From NCBI GenBank assembly GCA_020355185.1, contig CP070662.1, positions 259,420 through 293,382 of the forward strand: 33,963 nt of DNA. Direction: 5' to 3'. Both the position numbers and the translations under genes were made by a program. This DNA is from an archaeon. GTDB taxonomy: Archaea; Aenigmatarchaeota; Aenigmatarchaeia; PWEA01; JAGHBM01. Of the stretch, positions 3,638-9,889 are shown in pieces. Position 1 is the first letter of the stretch, and each line of letters begins with the position of its first letter. The notes beneath the pieces are model-generated. The model did not search any database, was not told the DNA's origin, and was given only the letters and a program-made list of their open reading frames with translations.

Positions 3638-3826
3638 TCACTGTTTCTGCGCTCCTATTTCCCTGTAGTCAGCGTACCAATCATGTCTCTTTATCGCATA
3701 CCCGAAGTAAAGAAGCACCAAGCCGATTATGGATATTGCCCAAGAGTACGGTATCTGGAAAAGAAAATATACATGGAGCCCCAGGAGCACGGTGCTTATA
3801 CCCATAAAGGCCCACCTGTAGTTCAT
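3638..3826 (-). CDS. Small membrane protein, 62 aa
   Basis: The protein has two predicted membrane helices (about residues 5-24 and 28-47) joined by a very short turn, then a basic, aromatic tail (IKRHDWYADYREIGAQKQ). I do not recognise a family. The start ATG overlaps the stop of the upstream HTH regulator by 4 bases, which makes translational coupling likely. Its stop abuts the stop of the hjc-like gene, which is read towards it. Confidence 0.7.
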   Translation of the reverse strand: MNYRWAFMGISTVLLGLHVYFLFQIPYSWAISIIGLVLLYFGYAIKRHDWYADYREIGAQKQ

Positions 3827-4548
3827 CTGAATCCTCTTTTTAATATTCCCTTGAGCTCGTTTAAATTCTTTGCCCTCGTGACCCCCAGGACTATTCCCTC
3901 TATTTCGGCTATTCTTTTGGCTACCTCGTCGACTTTCTCAGGACCGTGAAGAATCACGAGTGAGGGTTTTAGGTTGGTGACCTTAATTGCGACCATTGAG
4001 GACCTTCCAGAGGTCACGTTGGAGAATATAAGGGCTCTGTTTGTTGTATAGCCATATATCTTTACTAATTCCATGGGTGTTAGTTCCAATATGGCCTTGA
4101 GTGAGTCCACCAAGGAATATCCATATATCTGGTTTTCCAAAAGGTCCTCACGACCGACAATTAAACAGTTGGTTTTTTCGCAAAATTCCTTTACAGTAAT
4201 TGGTAACTTGAATTCTTTGACGTCAAGTATGCTTGAAGTGACAAGATCGTTTCCTGAAAGGGTATAAAATTCCCTTAGAAACTCCCCGCCCTTTCTCTCG
4301 GAAATTTTTATAAGTGAGTTGATTATTTTTTTTATTATCTTTATTCCGGGGGAAGTTCTTCTGTTGCTTTCGTAATCTGAGATAACCGAGGGGGTGACCC
4401 CCATCTCATTGGCTATCTCCTTCTGCGAGACCTTGAATATGTTTCTCCACTTTTTTATAACGAAACCGGGCTCCTGAGAAAGCACGATCTCCCCACAAAT
4501 TTTCCTAATCAAATTTTCCTTAATAAAATCCTTGTCTTTCATAATCAT
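3823..4548 (-). CDS. XRE-type transcriptional regulator, archaeal COG1709-like
   Basis: The 241-residue protein has an N-terminal Cro/C1-type HTH (KWRNIFKVSQKEIANEMGVT and following PSVISDYESNRR, about residues 30-65). A long ligand- or partner-binding region follows, with the conserved-looking LIVGREDLLENQIYGYSLVDSL and LVILHGPEKVDEVAKRIAE. This matches an archaeal HTH family found near information-processing genes. I moved the start from an upstream ATG at 4605 to ATG 4548 because a TATA box (about 4562-4575) lies where it gives a nearly leaderless message; ATG 4542 is equally possible. It is divergent from orc1/cdc6 across the probable origin. Confidence 0.8.
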   Translation of the reverse strand: MIMKDKDFIKENLIRKICGEIVLSQEPGFVIKKWRNIFKVSQKEIANEMGVTPSVISDYESNRRTSPGIKIIKKIINSLIKISERKGGEFLREFYTLSGNDLVTSSILDVKEFKLPITVKEFCEKTNCLIVGREDLLENQIYGYSLVDSLKAILELTPMELVKIYGYTTNRALIFSNVTSGRSSMVAIKVTNLKPSLVILHGPEKVDEVAKRIAEIEGIVLGVTRAKNLNELKGILKRGFR

Positions 4549-4561
4549 ATATTGTCGTAAT

Positions 4562-4575
4562 AGATATAAATAAAT
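4562..4575 (-). promoter_or_regulatory. TATA box of the HTH regulator
   Basis: Read leftward, the run TTTATTTATATCTA lies about 25 bases before ATG 4548/4542. This is the expected distance for an archaeal TATA box with a leaderless transcript, and it decides the choice of start codon. Confidence 0.5.
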
Positions 4576-4647
4576 GTCGTATAAAAACACACACCAACGT
4601 TTCATTTGGAGATTTTTTGTTTTATTTTTTAAACTTATAACATATTA

Positions 4648-4662
4648 TATAACAGTGTTATA
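4648..4662. promoter_or_regulatory. Palindrome TATAACA-G-TGTTATA in origin region
   Basis: This is a perfect 15-base palindrome between the divergent HTH regulator and orc1/cdc6. The same sequence with a different centre base recurs at 12430-12444 and 21878-21892. A half-site TATAACA is also at 4744-4750. It is likely a regulator-binding site. Confidence 0.6.
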
Positions 4663-4688
4663 CTTTAGTTAGTTAGTTAATAGAAAAA

Positions 4689-4712
4689 CTCCAGTGGAAA
4701 TAAAGGGGTCTC
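4689..4712 (+). repeat. ORB-like element 1
   Basis: It reads CTCCAGTGGAAATAAAGGGG followed by TCTC. This is very close to the CCAGTGGAAAC-plus-G-run consensus that I recall for Pyrococcus and Sulfolobus ORBs. It faces orc1/cdc6. Confidence 0.75.
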
Positions 4713-4719
4713 CTATTCA

Positions 4720-4741
4720 CACCCCCCAATTTCACGTGGAG
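4720..4741 (-). repeat. ORB-like element 2
   Basis: Read leftward it is CTCCACGTGAAATTGGGGGG followed by TG. It has the same dyad-GAAA-spacer-G-run layout as element 1 but in the opposite direction, and it starts only 7 bases beyond that element. Confidence 0.7.
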
Positions 4742-4746
4742 AATAT

Positions 4747-4768
4747 AACACCTTTATTTCACGTGCAG
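4747..4768 (-). repeat. ORB-like element 3
   Basis: Read leftward it is CTGCACGTGAAATAAAGGTG followed by TT. It shares CACGTGAAA with element 2 and AAATAAAGG with element 1, but its G-run is interrupted, so it is probably a weaker site. It lies directly before the orc1/cdc6 TATA box (about 4772-4783). Confidence 0.62.
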
Positions 4769-4821
4769 GTAAATATTTATAACTAAACTCTCTATAAGAA
4801 AGAAAGGGGGGTTGGTTTCGT

Positions 4822-6009
4822 TTGCAAAAATCTCTGGATGATATTTTTGACGGATATGAAAACAAAAAAAGAATTTTCAAAAACAAAAAGGCAATAACAA
4901 CTTCTTATAAACCCGACCAGCTTCCCTACAGGGACAACGAAATAAGAACACTGGCTTCAATTTTAACTCCCAGCCTGGTGGGGGACAGACCTTCAAACAT
5001 TTTTATTTTCGGCAAGCCCGGAACCGGCAAGACCGCCGTTTCCTTTCTGGTATCCAAAAAACTCAGGGAAAAGAGCAACAAGAATGTAAACCTTTTTTAT
5101 CTCAACTGCAAGATGAGAAATGTCGCTGATACAGAGTACAGACTCATGGCACAGTTGGCAAGGGAACTTGGTGAATTCGTTCCCGTCACAGGACTCCCCA
5201 CGGACCACGTTTACGGCCTTTTTTTCAAGGCCCTTGACAAAAGAGGTGGGGTGGTTATATTGGTGCTGGACGAGATAGATGCCCTGGTGGAGAAAATTGG
5301 CGACAACTTTCTGTACAATCTGACAAGGATAAATGAGGATCTGAAGAACACTCAGGTAAGCATCGTTGGCATATCAAACAATCTTTCTTTCCTTAACGAC
5401 CTAGACCCGCGCGTAAAGTCATCCCTCTCGGAGGAGGAAATTTTATTTCACCCATACAACGCCACCCAGCTTCAGGACATTCTGAGAAAAAGGTCTGAAA
5501 AGGCCTTCAGGGAGAATGCAACGGAACCGGGCGTCTTGGAGAAATGCGCCGCCCTGGCGGCCCAGGAGCACGGCGACGCCAGAAGGGCGCTGGACTTGCT
5601 CCGGGTCGCGGCCGAGATAGGTGAAAGGGAAGGTGCCGATAGGGTTTGCGAGAGGCACGTTGACCTGGCGGAGTCAAAGATAGACAACGACAGAATAATA
5701 GAAATCGTTAGATCCCAGCCCAGACAGAGCCAGGCGGTCCTGTGGAGCATACTAACAAGAGAGGGCGACGTGTACACCGGGGACATATTTTCAATTTACG
5801 AGAACATATGCTCTGAAAACGGTCTCAAGCCGTTGACCCAGAGAAGGGTTTCGGACCTGATAGCAGAGCTGGATCTTCTGGGGATAATAAACGCCAAGGT
5901 AATAAGCAAGGGCAGATACGGCAGGACAAGGATGATAAAAATGAACCTGCAGGTTTCCCTGGCGGAAAAAATCAGGGGAATCTTACAGACAGATTACTAT
6001 TTCCAATAG
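4822..6009 (+). CDS. cdc6: Origin-binding initiator ATPase Orc1/Cdc6
   Basis: The 395-residue AAA+ protein binds origin DNA and loads MCM helicase. GKPGTGKT at residues 64-71 is Walker A, and LVLDEID near residue 150 is Walker B. GISNN near 184 is sensor 1, and HGDARRALDLL near 251 is sensor 2 with its arginine. The last ~110 residues fit the winged-helix DNA-binding domain, and the N-terminal PDQLPYRDNEIRTLASIL matches the family. The start is TTG at 4822, since no ATG fits the conserved N-terminus; a GGGGGGTTGG run precedes it. A TATA box at about 4772-4783 gives a leader of roughly 20 bases. It is followed after 8 bases by the DP1-like gene, forming a replication operon. Confidence 0.95.
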   Translation: MQKSLDDIFDGYENKKRIFKNKKAITTSYKPDQLPYRDNEIRTLASILTPSLVGDRPSNIFIFGKPGTGKTAVSFLVSKKLREKSNKNVNLFYLNCKMRNVADTEYRLMAQLARELGEFVPVTGLPTDHVYGLFFKALDKRGGVVILVLDEIDALVEKIGDNFLYNLTRINEDLKNTQVSIVGISNNLSFLNDLDPRVKSSLSEEEILFHPYNATQLQDILRKRSEKAFRENATEPGVLEKCAALAAQEHGDARRALDLLRVAAEIGEREGADRVCERHVDLAESKIDNDRIIEIVRSQPRQSQAVLWSILTREGDVYTGDIFSIYENICSENGLKPLTQRRVSDLIAELDLLGIINAKVISKGRYGRTRMIKMNLQVSLAEKIRGILQTDYYFQ

Positions 6010-6017
6010 GTGCTCTT

Positions 6018-7025
6018 ATGGATTTGGTAGAGGAATTCTTGAAGAGGGGCGTGTTGCTTTCACCGGAACTAAAGCAGAAAATAAAACCGGAGGAAGTTGA
6101 AAGCATAGCAGATAATTTCAAAAAACAGGACGTGGTACTGACAGAGGATGCATATTCACTTATGAAAATCAGCCCCGTGAAGGTCGTATACGAGCACAAA
6201 AAGGAAGGAAAGACCAGAAAGATAACCAACTTCGTGGATTTCTATAACCAAAGGTTTGAGTTTTTGAGGGAACTGCTCAAGAAAAAACTTGAACTCAAAG
6301 AGCTCGCCTCAATAAACAAACTCGGCCCCGGAGACGTGGTGGTTATAGGAATGGTCAGGGATGCAAAAAAGGAGGGGTTCGACCTGGAGGATTCGACAGG
6401 CTCCGTTACCTGTATTTCCCCGGAGAGGGTCCTTGAAGATGAGGTCATAGCGGTCAAAGGCAGATTCGACAGAAAGAAAATTCAGGTGGAAAAAACAATC
6501 TATCCGGACATATCATTAAGCAGGAAGGTTAACACAACGCAGGATGATTGTCAGGTTCTCTTCACCCAGAAGAATTTACCTTCACGTGAATTACCACCTT
6601 ACATTTTCACGTCCGACGCGTCCATTGGAGACCTGAAAAACGTGAAGTCGTGGATAGTTACAAAAAAAGGAAATCTTCCCAAAGGGGAAAGAAGTTTGGG
6701 GGCGAGCCCGCCTTTCATGGCCGATGTGATGGGGGTCAAAGTTTTTGTCCTGGAGTACAGCCACATGGATGAGGTGAAAAAAAGACTTGAAACAGACGAC
6801 GAGAAAAAGATAGTTGTAGAACTGCTCAAGAGAAGGCACTTCCTTCCGTTCCTTTATCTGGATAACGATCCCTATCTTTTAAGGGAAGTTCCCGACATAG
6901 TATTCATGACAGGAGGGAAGGAAACTTTCTTTCTGAACTACAAGGGAGTTTCCGTGGTTTCATTCTCCGGCGGCGGGGCTTTCATGGTGAACTTGAAAAC
7001 AAGGGATTACAGGGAGATAAAATGA
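6018..7025 (+). CDS. polB (DP1-like): PolD small-subunit (DP1) homologue, shortened and apparently nuclease-dead
   Basis: At 335 residues this is little over half the usual DP1 length. The N-terminal LVEEFLKRGVLLSPE, the FVDFYNQRFEFLRELL segment (72-87) and the OB-fold stretch (about 98-162, ending IYPDISLSRK) are DP1-like. So are LLKRRHFLPF (269-278) and REVPDIVFMTGG (289-300). In active DP1 the last motif is VPDIFHTGHVH, with metal-binding histidines; here the region reads MTGGKE and the histidines are gone. The DxHxG and GNHD motifs of the calcineurin-like nuclease are also absent, and about 100 or more residues are missing between 180 and 269. The protein would therefore be structural, like eukaryotic polymerase B-subunits. 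ATG 6018 has GGTG overlapping the cdc6 stop. The large subunit DP2 is not in the window. Confidence 0.8.
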   Translation: MDLVEEFLKRGVLLSPELKQKIKPEEVESIADNFKKQDVVLTEDAYSLMKISPVKVVYEHKKEGKTRKITNFVDFYNQRFEFLRELLKKKLELKELASINKLGPGDVVVIGMVRDAKKEGFDLEDSTGSVTCISPERVLEDEVIAVKGRFDRKKIQVEKTIYPDISLSRKVNTTQDDCQVLFTQKNLPSRELPPYIFTSDASIGDLKNVKSWIVTKKGNLPKGERSLGASPPFMADVMGVKVFVLEYSHMDEVKKRLETDDEKKIVVELLKRRHFLPFLYLDNDPYLLREVPDIVFMTGGKETFFLNYKGVSVVSFSGGGAFMVNLKTRDYREIK

Positions 7026-7222
7026 TCAGGACCACAATTTTGACCTCGGGAGATTGATTCTGCCAATAGCCGGAGACGGAAATTCGTGGATTTCTTGAGG
7101 AAAAATGGGCGATTTGGGGTCAGGATTTTAATTACTTCTGGGTCATTTCTATACCCAACCAAACAAATTAATTTTTAATAGTTTAACAAACTATTACTTT
7201 GTTGCTGGTCTTGGGTGTGGTT
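7026..7222. other. Intergenic region before polB
   Basis: These 197 bases hold no convincing gene. The first ~100 bases are not AT-rich, and a short frame without a good start codon runs through them. The last ~50 bases are AT-rich and contain the polB promoter and a palindrome at 7176-7196. Confidence 0.5.
7176..7196. promoter_or_regulatory. Inverted repeat at the polB promoter
   Basis: TAATAGTTT (7176-7184) and AAACTATTA (7188-7196) are perfect inverted arms with a 3-base centre. They overlap the TATA-like TTAATTTTTAATAG (7168-7181) and lie 26 bases before ATG 7223, a position suited to repression or autoregulation. The sequence differs from the TATAACA palindrome found elsewhere. Confidence 0.5.
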
Positions 7223-9889
7223 ATGAAGTTGCAGATTTTCGATGCCGACTATACGATGCTGAATGACAAGCCGGTGGTCCGTGTTTTCTGCAAGGACGAA
7301 TCAGGCAAAACCTTCTGCGTTTTCTGCAAGGATTACATGCCCTATTTTTACGCGCTCGGAGACCAGGAAAAAATAAGGCAGCAGCTGAAAAAATTCGAGG
7401 GTGAAATAAGAAAAATAGAGACGGTCAAAAGATTCCTTCCGGTGGGGTACCAGAAAGAGAAGACAGAGGTCCTTAAGATAACCACAAAGAACCCCTCCAA
7501 GGTCCCCGACCTGAGGGACAGTCTTGACTGCAGGACATTCGAAGCGGACATACTTTTCAAGTACAGGTTCTTTGCCGACAAAAACATTGGGGGGATGGGA
7601 TGGATAGAGGTGGAGGACAAGTTCGTAAACACCACCACAGTCTCCTGCAAGGGTCTGGAGACAAAGAAAATAAAGAGCATAGTCAGCGATAAGAACGCTC
7701 CCCTCAAGACAATGGCTCTGGACATAGAGACGGAGACCCCGACAGACAGGCTGCCGGAGACAGGAAAGGATGCCATAACCATGCTGAGCCTAGCTTTCTC
7801 AAAGAGTTACATGGGGCAGAAGGACATGGTTATAGTTTCCAAGCACGTCAGGCTCAGGGAGGACCAGAAAAAGAACACCATCTGCGTGGAAAGCGAAAAG
7901 AAGATGCTGGAAAAATTCAAGGACATAATTGACCAGTACGACCCGGACGTGATCACCGGCTACAACATAGAGAACTTCGACTTTCCCTTTATAGTCGGTA
8001 GGATGGAAAAACTCGGAATAAAGAGAGATTTGGGAAGGGCAAAAGACAAGTCGGTTTTCTGCAGCAAGTACGGCCCCAGATCGACCACCAGGATTACCGG
8101 AAGGGTGGTCGCGGATTCCTACCAGATTATAAAGAGGGATTTTTCGTTCAAGAGCTACAAGCTGGATGCCGTGGCGGAAAAGTTGCTTGGAAAGAAAAAG
8201 ATCGACATAAGCTACAGGGACTTTAACAAAATATGGAACGGCAAGGCGGAGGAATTGCAGAAGTTCATAGACTACTCAAGGAGGGATTCGGTACTTGCCC
8301 TCGACCTTATTGAGAAAAAAAATCTCATGGACAAGTACGTGGCTCTTTCCAAGGTTTCCGGAATCTTGTTCCAGGACGCACTCAACGGCGGGGAGACGAT
8401 AAGAATAGAGAATGTTTTACTAAAGGAGTTCAACAAAAAGGACGTTCTTTTTCCTCTCAAACCCAGCGACAGGGAGATAATGGAAAGGGCGAAGAAGAGA
8501 AAAAAAAGCGAGCTTAAGGGCGGCTTGGTTCTCCAGCCCAAGGCAGGGCTCCATACGGACGGGTACATCCTAGTCCTGGATTTCAAGAGCCTGTATCCCA
8601 GCATAATAAGAACCTACAACATCTGTCCCACCACGCTCCTAAGTGATGACATAAAAGTCAAGTGTAACCTGTCGCCAATTAAGACAAGGTTCGTTGACAG
8701 CGAGATCAGACCGGGCATCCTGCCTTTCGTTCTGGAAAGGCTTATCAAAGAGAGGTCAGTTGTAAAGAAAAGGATGCATCAGGAGAAGGATAGGGACGAA
8801 AAAAGACTTCTTTACGCGAAGCAGTGGGCCCTGAAAATACTGGCCAACGCCTTTTACGGTTATACCGGATACCTGAGAGCCAAGACCTACGTCGTGGAGG
8901 TGGCCAATACGATAACCGCCTTCGGCAGGGAACTCCTCCAGAAGACGAGAGAGGAGATAACTAACATGGGTTACGAAGTCATTTATGGCGACACGGATTC
9001 GGTTTTTGTGAAGGTCAAGACCAAGGATCTGGAAAATGCTTACAGGAAAGGCAACCAGATAGTGAGCAAGATAAAACTCCCCGGGAAACTCGTGTTGGAG
9101 TTTGAAAAGACCTTCCGTTCTTTTCTCATACTCACCAAAAAGAGATATGCCGCATGGAGCTTTGAGAAAACCAACGACGAATGGACAGAAAAGATAGAGA
9201 TGAAGGGCATAGAGACGGTCAGGAGAGACTGGCCTGATATAGTAACGGAAACTATGAACGTGGTAATAAACATAATACTTAAGGAGGGGGACGTGAAAAA
9301 AGCCATAAGGTACGTTCAGGGGGAGGTCGACAAGCTTAATGCGGGTGAGGTGGACCTGAAAAAACTTGCCGTAACAAAGAGCATAACCAAGAGCGTAGAC
9401 CGCTATGAAGGCATGCTGCCGCACATAGAGCTGGCCAAAAAACTCAGAAAGAGGTCACCCTCACAGGCACCCGTGGCCGGTTCCAGAATATCCTTTGTCA
9501 TAATACGGGGCAACCAGATGTTGAGCAAGCGGGCGGAGGACCCTGAGTACATATCAGAAAACAAACTCAAGATAGACTCCTGCTACTACATCGATAACCA
9601 GCTGCTTCCGCCGCTGGAAAGAATTTTCTCGGTTATAGGGGTGGATAAGGGGGAGCTTTTGGGCAAGGGCAGACAGTGTAACCTCAAGGACCTCCTCAAA
9701 CCGGCAAAGAGGAACCACAAAATAGAGACACCGCCGGAAAAAATCATCATAGAATCTCCGGAGGGGTTTTTGTGCAGGGAGTGCAAGAGAAATTTCAGGA
9801 GAATCCCGCTGGTGGGGAGATGCGACTGCGGTGGGGAGTTGTTTGCCTTCGGGAACGGGAACATGGGGAAGCTCATTAAAATATGTTGA
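7223..9889 (+). CDS. polB: DNA polymerase, family B
   Basis: The 888-residue enzyme has all the B-family proofreading and polymerase motifs. ExoI is LDIETE (D167, E169), ExoII is YNIENFDFPF (from 247) and ExoIII is YSRRD (351-355). Motif A is DFKSLYPSII (from 453), motif B is KILANAFYGYTGY (from 538) and motif C is YGDTDSVFV (from 588). No intein interrupts these sites, although such sites often carry inteins in archaea. The C-terminus ends in a CREC...CDCGG zinc ribbon (about 851-873). I chose ATG 7223, which gives MKLQIFDADY, over a TTG at 7199. Whether this or PolD is the main replicase cannot be read from the sequence, but the shortened DP1 next door makes the question open. Confidence 0.95.
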   Translation: MKLQIFDADYTMLNDKPVVRVFCKDESGKTFCVFCKDYMPYFYALGDQEKIRQQLKKFEGEIRKIETVKRFLPVGYQKEKTEVLKITTKNPSKVPDLRDSLDCRTFEADILFKYRFFADKNIGGMGWIEVEDKFVNTTTVSCKGLETKKIKSIVSDKNAPLKTMALDIETETPTDRLPETGKDAITMLSLAFSKSYMGQKDMVIVSKHVRLREDQKKNTICVESEKKMLEKFKDIIDQYDPDVITGYNIENFDFPFIVGRMEKLGIKRDLGRAKDKSVFCSKYGPRSTTRITGRVVADSYQIIKRDFSFKSYKLDAVAEKLLGKKKIDISYRDFNKIWNGKAEELQKFIDYSRRDSVLALDLIEKKNLMDKYVALSKVSGILFQDALNGGETIRIENVLLKEFNKKDVLFPLKPSDREIMERAKKRKKSELKGGLVLQPKAGLHTDGYILVLDFKSLYPSIIRTYNICPTTLLSDDIKVKCNLSPIKTRFVDSEIRPGILPFVLERLIKERSVVKKRMHQEKDRDEKRLLYAKQWALKILANAFYGYTGYLRAKTYVVEVANTITAFGRELLQKTREEITNMGYEVIYGDTDSVFVKVKTKDLENAYRKGNQIVSKIKLPGKLVLEFEKTFRSFLILTKKRYAAWSFEKTNDEWTEKIEMKGIETVRRDWPDIVTETMNVVINIILKEGDVKKAIRYVQGEVDKLNAGEVDLKKLAVTKSITKSVDRYEGMLPHIELAKKLRKRSPSQAPVAGSRISFVIIRGNQMLSKRAEDPEYISENKLKIDSCYYIDNQLLPPLERIFSVIGVDKGELLGKGRQCNLKDLLKPAKRNHKIETPPEKIIIESPEGFLCRECKRNFRRIPLVGRCDCGGELFAFGNGNMGKLIKIC

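Follow-up and report, generated by a model that had tools for sequence, protein, structure and literature searches.

Introduction

The replicative polymerases of eukaryotes are thought to be chimeric, joining a PolB core to a docking tail of PolD type and a dead DP1 (PMC6355029, PMC2669801, PMC7544198). The closest described archaeal system is that of Kazlauskas et al. (2020), who reported a PolB (B6-aenigma1) with a DP2-like Zn motif, the absence of DP2 from most Aenigmarchaeota and an inactive DP1, and who proposed that PolB replaced DP2, after which DP1 could lose its nuclease (PMC7544198). Within PolD, the KxRRxP loop of the DP2 Zn-III module is the DP1-binding element and fits an electronegative OB-PDE groove of DP1; a 20-residue peptide of Zn-III binds DP1 with nanomolar affinity (PMC6355029). 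The catalytic octad of P. abyssi DP1 consists of D360, H362, D404, N450, H451, H497, H560 and H562 (PMC10721889). In several PolD archaea the cdc6 and DP1 genes are typically linked, and the P. abyssi island also contains DP2 (PMC2643942).

This study examines a DP1 gene and its surroundings in a window of 33,963 nucleotides (the whole stretch of DNA that was analysed) from an aenigmatarchaeal genome (contig CP070662.1). The core idea, a PolB in place of DP2 together with a dead DP1, is already published for this phylum, so the novelty of the locus is moderate and the window is a further case of it. The window shares with the B6-aenigma1 system the phylum, one Zn motif at the PolB C-terminus that most resembles DP2 Zn-III, the lack of DP2 and an inactive DP1, and shows no essential difference (PMC7544198). 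Added to that picture here are a survey of 156 genomes, a graded decay of DP1, one family that retains PolD and the in-place position of PolB after cdc6-DP1; no report of the decay series or of the single PolD-retaining family was found in the open-licence PMC literature. The locus also raises the question of why a dead DP1 subunit is kept at all.

Results and Discussion

Identity and fold of the window DP1

The open reading frame at 6018..7025 (forward strand) encodes 335 residues from an ATG start and was identified as the PolD small subunit, DP1. The NCBIfam DP1 model NF003118 matched residues 19-182, covering the N-terminal and OB part (E=1.3e-22). A family profile built from 37 relatives matched solved DP1s over nearly their full length (6knb chain 2-497, E=4.8e-44), with weak matches to the solved DP1 N-terminal domain 2kxe (E=0.095) and to POLE2 and POLD2. 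An AlphaFold model made with the 37 relatives (pLDDT 91.5, pTM 0.87) retrieved P. abyssi DP1 first in a Foldseek search of the PDB (E about 1e-19 to 1e-18), followed by the B-subunits of human and yeast Pol delta, epsilon, zeta and alpha. Profile and fold, including N-terminal, OB and phosphodiesterase parts, place the protein among the DP1s and B-subunits and rule out another family. Together with the octad alignment described below, they mark the gene as a DP1-derived, putatively non-catalytic B-subunit.

Single-sequence approaches were uninformative. The Pfam matches were weak and spurious (SocA_Panacea, 0.018; FliD_C, 0.16), as was the one phmmer match against the PDB (E=0.99), the identity being resolved by the 37-relative profile. 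A contig scan for relatives with the window sequence by itself found none, the family being too divergent for peptide patterns.

All parts of the subunit lie on the forward strand. Residues 1-90 (6018..6287) form an N-terminal helical region, as indicated by helices in the model and the weak 2kxe match. Relatives and the model place an OB fold at approximately residues 100-165 (6315..6512), with a near-invariant acidic pair, E124-D125. It is followed by a shrunken phosphodiesterase domain (6540..7022), which keeps its fold in the model and 0-1 of the eight catalytic residues. The landmarks KRRHFLP (residues 271-277; 6828..6848) and REVPDIV (residues 289-295; 6882..6902) are retained together with the OB fold, in agreement with the original prediction. 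Both contain residues that rank among the most conserved in the DP1s of lineages lacking DP2 (D125 100%, R273 98%, E124 97%, Y308 96%, P292 95%, D293 and K309 93%). The protein is also as compact as had been claimed, at 335 residues vs. 450-500 for the canonical DP1s of the phylum.

Loss of the nuclease site and retention of the gene

When the window DP1 was aligned to canonical DP1, the octad positions read, in order, K, gap, gap, N, L, E, G and K, i.e., one match in eight. This sole scored asparagine falls in an unrelated KGNLPK stretch, and none of the metal ligands is kept. The protein thus lacks the set of residues that characterizes an active DP1 3'-5' exonuclease (DxH, D, NH, H and HxH), and the proposed disappearance of the active site is confirmed, the one remaining residue being a chance match. 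The purified protein would accordingly be expected to show no exonuclease activity in vitro.

The gene is not a pseudogene, since the open frame and the loss pattern are common to relatives from the same genus and the same family (57%, 47% and 40% identity) and since pN lies far below pS between two genomes of the genus (0.25 vs. 0.78; dS is saturated, so that no dN/dS figure is given). Because these values are accompanied by the persistence of non-catalytic residues, selection evidently still acts on the DP1 subunit without its nuclease. The loss is shared within the genus, the family and, one family excepted, the phylum.

Absence of DP2 from the genome and most of the phylum

No second DP1 was found in the window genome (832,779 bp), and PF03833 gave no DP2 match in it. 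The full-length DP2 model TIGR00354 matched only the tail of a PolB (model positions 1013-1057), apart from a noise match. A PolD holoenzyme with its DP2 partner is therefore not encoded there. DP2 itself is missing, and its type of docking Zn finger is present on the C-terminus of PolB.

The survey covered 156 genomes of the class, which are also the whole phylum set, from 104 genera. DP2 scored above the cut-off in 10 of the 156, all from one family (f10) and representing 3 of the 104 genera. An artefact of assembly or annotation, with a full DP1 or DP2 lying in a missing part of the genome, might be suspected from the completeness score of 79% and from several near relatives being fragmented MAGs. 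However, the window genome is one contig, and DP2 is absent from 38 of the 39 phylum genomes that are at least 90% complete. This recurrence largely refutes the artefact reading, which we regard as highly improbable.

The neighbouring PolB

Directly downstream of DP1, in the DP2 slot of the cdc6-DP1-(DP2) order, lies a PolB gene (7199..9889, forward strand) encoding 896 residues from a TTG start; an ATG at 7223 is also possible. Its 3'-5' exonuclease region (7721..8287, forward strand) is intact in ExoI (D175, E177), ExoII (N256, D261) and ExoIII (Y359, D363), as are the polymerase motifs from A (DFKSLYPS) through B to C (YGDTDS) at 8579..8998 on the same strand. The C-terminal Zn finger CRECKRNFRRIPLVGRCDC (9773..9829, forward strand) is homologous to DP2 Zn-III, corresponding to TIGR00354 positions 1013-1057, and includes an RRxP loop (9797-9808, forward strand) that is the predicted DP1-docking element. 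The intact exonuclease ligands fit the original proposal that proofreading would be left to PolB. A second PolB of the genome (contig positions 347830-350157; 783 residues, 35% identical) ends without the Zn finger region.

By profile, the window PolB matched archaeal B3-type PolB and Pol delta equally well (570 vs. 565 bits). The named contigs encoding the nearest PolBs belong to Candidatus Aenigmatarchaeota. Two of them appear to come from genomes already in the survey: L096 agrees with the same-family genome G003 in its PolB (892-residue frame, score and Zn motif) and in the DP1 gap, and L097 agrees with the same-order genome G006. A viral source of the Zn-finger PolB found no support: the best among the viral loci listed is 32% identical and ends before the Zn finger.

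Combined, these features make it very probable that DP1 serves a chimeric PolB as its non-catalytic B-subunit and that this PolB replaces the lost DP2 and proofreads for itself. Under this proposal, DP2 was lost, and its position in the gene order was filled by a putative B6 (delta-like) PolB with a DP2-derived Zn finger, while the former exonuclease subunit of PolD became a structural B-subunit. On DP1, a conserved acidic OB/PDE groove would accept the RRxP loop of the finger. The resulting PolB-DP1 heterodimer would be organized like eukaryotic Pol alpha, delta, epsilon and zeta, and both polymerisation and 3'-5' proofreading at the fork would come from PolB. DP1 would be kept for assembly and probably also for contacts with Cdc6 or the helicase/replisome, and its nuclease site would have decayed because only these roles remained. 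The absence of DP2, the PolB finger and the loss across the phylum, one family excepted, strengthen the reading of DP1 as a dead subunit.

Gene order and the Cdc6 connection

The Orc1/Cdc6 initiator gene (4822..6009, forward strand) ends 8 bp upstream of DP1. Upstream of it, a helix-turn-helix regulator gene (3823-4605, reverse strand) runs divergently from cdc6, and an origin or a control element may lie in the 216-bp gap between the two (4606-4821).

Across the survey, the Zn-finger PolB follows immediately after DP1 on one strand, at a distance below 1 kb, in 77 of 102 genomes (67 at less than 200 bp); the two are not adjacent on one strand in families f7, f14, f17, f18, f22 and f32. No neighbour of DP1 is more constant than Cdc6, which immediately precedes it in 98 of the 118 loci that could be evaluated, including in families without an adjacent PolB (f7, f14, f18). 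This constancy would suit a DP1 that has left the replicative polymerase for another task, for instance that of an adaptor with an OB fold serving Cdc6 or the loading of origins; such a DP1 would not bind PolB, and the PolB finger would have another job. We consider such a role unlikely: the finger corresponds specifically to the module by which DP2 docks onto DP1 and is retained with its four cysteines in 93 of the 93 PolBs with a readable C-terminus, and the OB acidic pair is among the best-conserved residues of DP1, fitting a groove into which the finger would dock (PMC6355029).

Where the sequence can be read, essentially all genomes without DP2 carry the Zn-finger PolB. Its exonuclease ligands are invariant in the PolBs covering them (D175/E177 in 95/95, N256/D261 in 99/99 and Y359/D363 in 101/101), and the ED acidic pair occurs in 127 of 133 DP1s. 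The docking-loop RR has been lost in f8, f14 and parts of f18 and f21 while DP1 retains the acidic pair, so docking to PolB, as favoured here, would not be strictly RR-dependent. In f7, f8, f14 and f18, DP1 is highly decayed and the PolB loop often lacks RR (e.g., APLTG, PPLSG), with the E-D pair kept; the PolB-DP1 interface in these families may have changed.

Frames of 1218-1400 residues for the Zn-finger PolB at loci L084, L176, L181, L184, L226 and L263 (genomes G054, G111, G101, G103, G064 and G114, respectively) point to putative inteins in the PolB of several families. The G114 PolB was matched in two halves.

Graded decay of DP1 and the order of events

DP1 was found in 139 of the surveyed genomes, and 133 sequences were read. 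In the PolD-retaining family f10, all eight DP1s read keep 8/8 octad residues, and PolB differs, having 773-783 residues where complete and no finger. In the 125 DP1s of DP2-less families, N450 and H451 never occur together. Of these DP1s, four retain 7/8 (G027 and G059 of f16, with GNMD; G114 of f28, with GEHD; and G116 of f29, with SDPH, for which the alignment is uncertain), ten retain 6/8, three 5/8 and seven 4/8, and 91 retain 0 or 1. Dollo counts per residue come out too high because highly decayed DP1s match by chance, and they were not used as numbers.

The relatives that keep 6-7 of the eight residues without DP2 (f16, f28, f29, f6, f21) could still bind metal, which leaves some room for a noncanonical nuclease, with the shrunken phosphodiesterase domain active through other residues. 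For the window DP1 this is scarcely credible, given that it has no metal ligand at all and that alanine at H451 alone suffices for the form of P. abyssi DP1 used as proofreading-dead (PMC10721889).

On the PolB gene tree (103 sequences), the 29 family groups can be accounted for by 28 label changes, which is the minimum, indicating that PolB was inherited vertically. The DP1s with the most metal ligands left sit on both sides of the deep split of this tree, with f21 on one side and f16, f28, f29, f30 and f6 on the other. Within the latter side, N450 is kept and H451 lost in f16 and G107, and H451 is kept and N450 lost in G114 and G116. Read most simply, the common ancestor combined the Zn-finger PolB with an intact or near-intact DP1 site, which the lineages would then have lost separately; single-residue reversions and the uncertain G116 alignment are caveats to the separate losses.

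On balance, it appears somewhat favoured that DP1 decayed stepwise and many times over once PolB had acquired the docking finger of DP2, the catalytic swap preceding the inactivation of the B-subunit and the phylum thereby replaying pre-eukaryotic steps. The GNH motif would have failed first (GNMD in f16, GEHD in f28), with metal ligands lingering at 6-7/8; the ligands would then have gone and the domain shrunk, as in the window DP1, which, judged by its residues and length, is the fully decayed, compact end of the series. This order of events is testable, as living relatives range from those with an intact PolD, through those that combine a near-intact DP1 with a chimeric PolB, to those whose DP1 has decayed fully. 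In f10, linkage of cdc6 and DP1 was seen in 0 of 5 readable loci, so this family may have re-acquired PolD.

Two observations concern individual DP1 genes. The active DP1 of locus L081 (genome G031, f10) has an intein-like insertion right after the GD motif (D404), giving a frame of 858 residues. Genome G129, a single contig (L197, L198), carries two DP1-like genes (458643-459608 and 706015-706941), both of which are predicted to be inactive.

Comparison with other chimeric and PolD systems

The eukaryotic B-subunits (POLD2, POLE2, POLA2) share with the window DP1 the OB and inactive phosphodiesterase fold and a partner PolB with C-terminal metal-binding motifs. They differ in size, at roughly 410-570 residues vs. 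335, and in the PolB tail, which has one motif (CysB-like) in the window and CysA plus CysB in eukaryotes. The PolD (DP1-DP2) of Euryarchaeota resembles the window in DP1 homology, the docking module of Zn-III type and the cdc6-DP1 order, whereas the window lacks both DP2 and the DP1 active site and has PolB as its presumed catalytic core. The Heimdallarchaeota B10 PolB likewise combines a C-terminal Zn motif with an altered DP1, but it belongs to an EpsilonN-like clade, its CTD does not cluster with DP2 or B6 CTDs, and some of its DP1s keep all motifs (PMC7544198).

As read from its genes, the window would represent the eukaryotic chimeric design in a living archaeon. The original description of DP1 as a possible intermediate in polymerase evolution is fair as an analogy, or as a replay in nature of how the eukaryotic enzymes are arranged; nothing found here points to direct ancestry to eukaryotes.

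A PolB with a different tail was seen in a MAG labelled Candidatus Odinarchaeota (AUK032, JAGGSW010000163.1; genome G156). In its C-terminal part, this 987-residue protein (L111:5998-8961) carries two Zn motifs, CPHCKNTLSFKDAEKRFCPHC and CMNCKSSFRRPPLSGKCPKC, an arrangement that matches B6-aenigma2 with its eukaryote-like CysA+CysB plan. Neither DP1 nor DP2 was found in the 1.2-Mb AUK032 genome. The gene adjoins what look like two glycine-cleavage P genes, and it may represent a PolB of Asgard archaea whose tail is eukaryote-like, or it may lie on a mis-binned contig.
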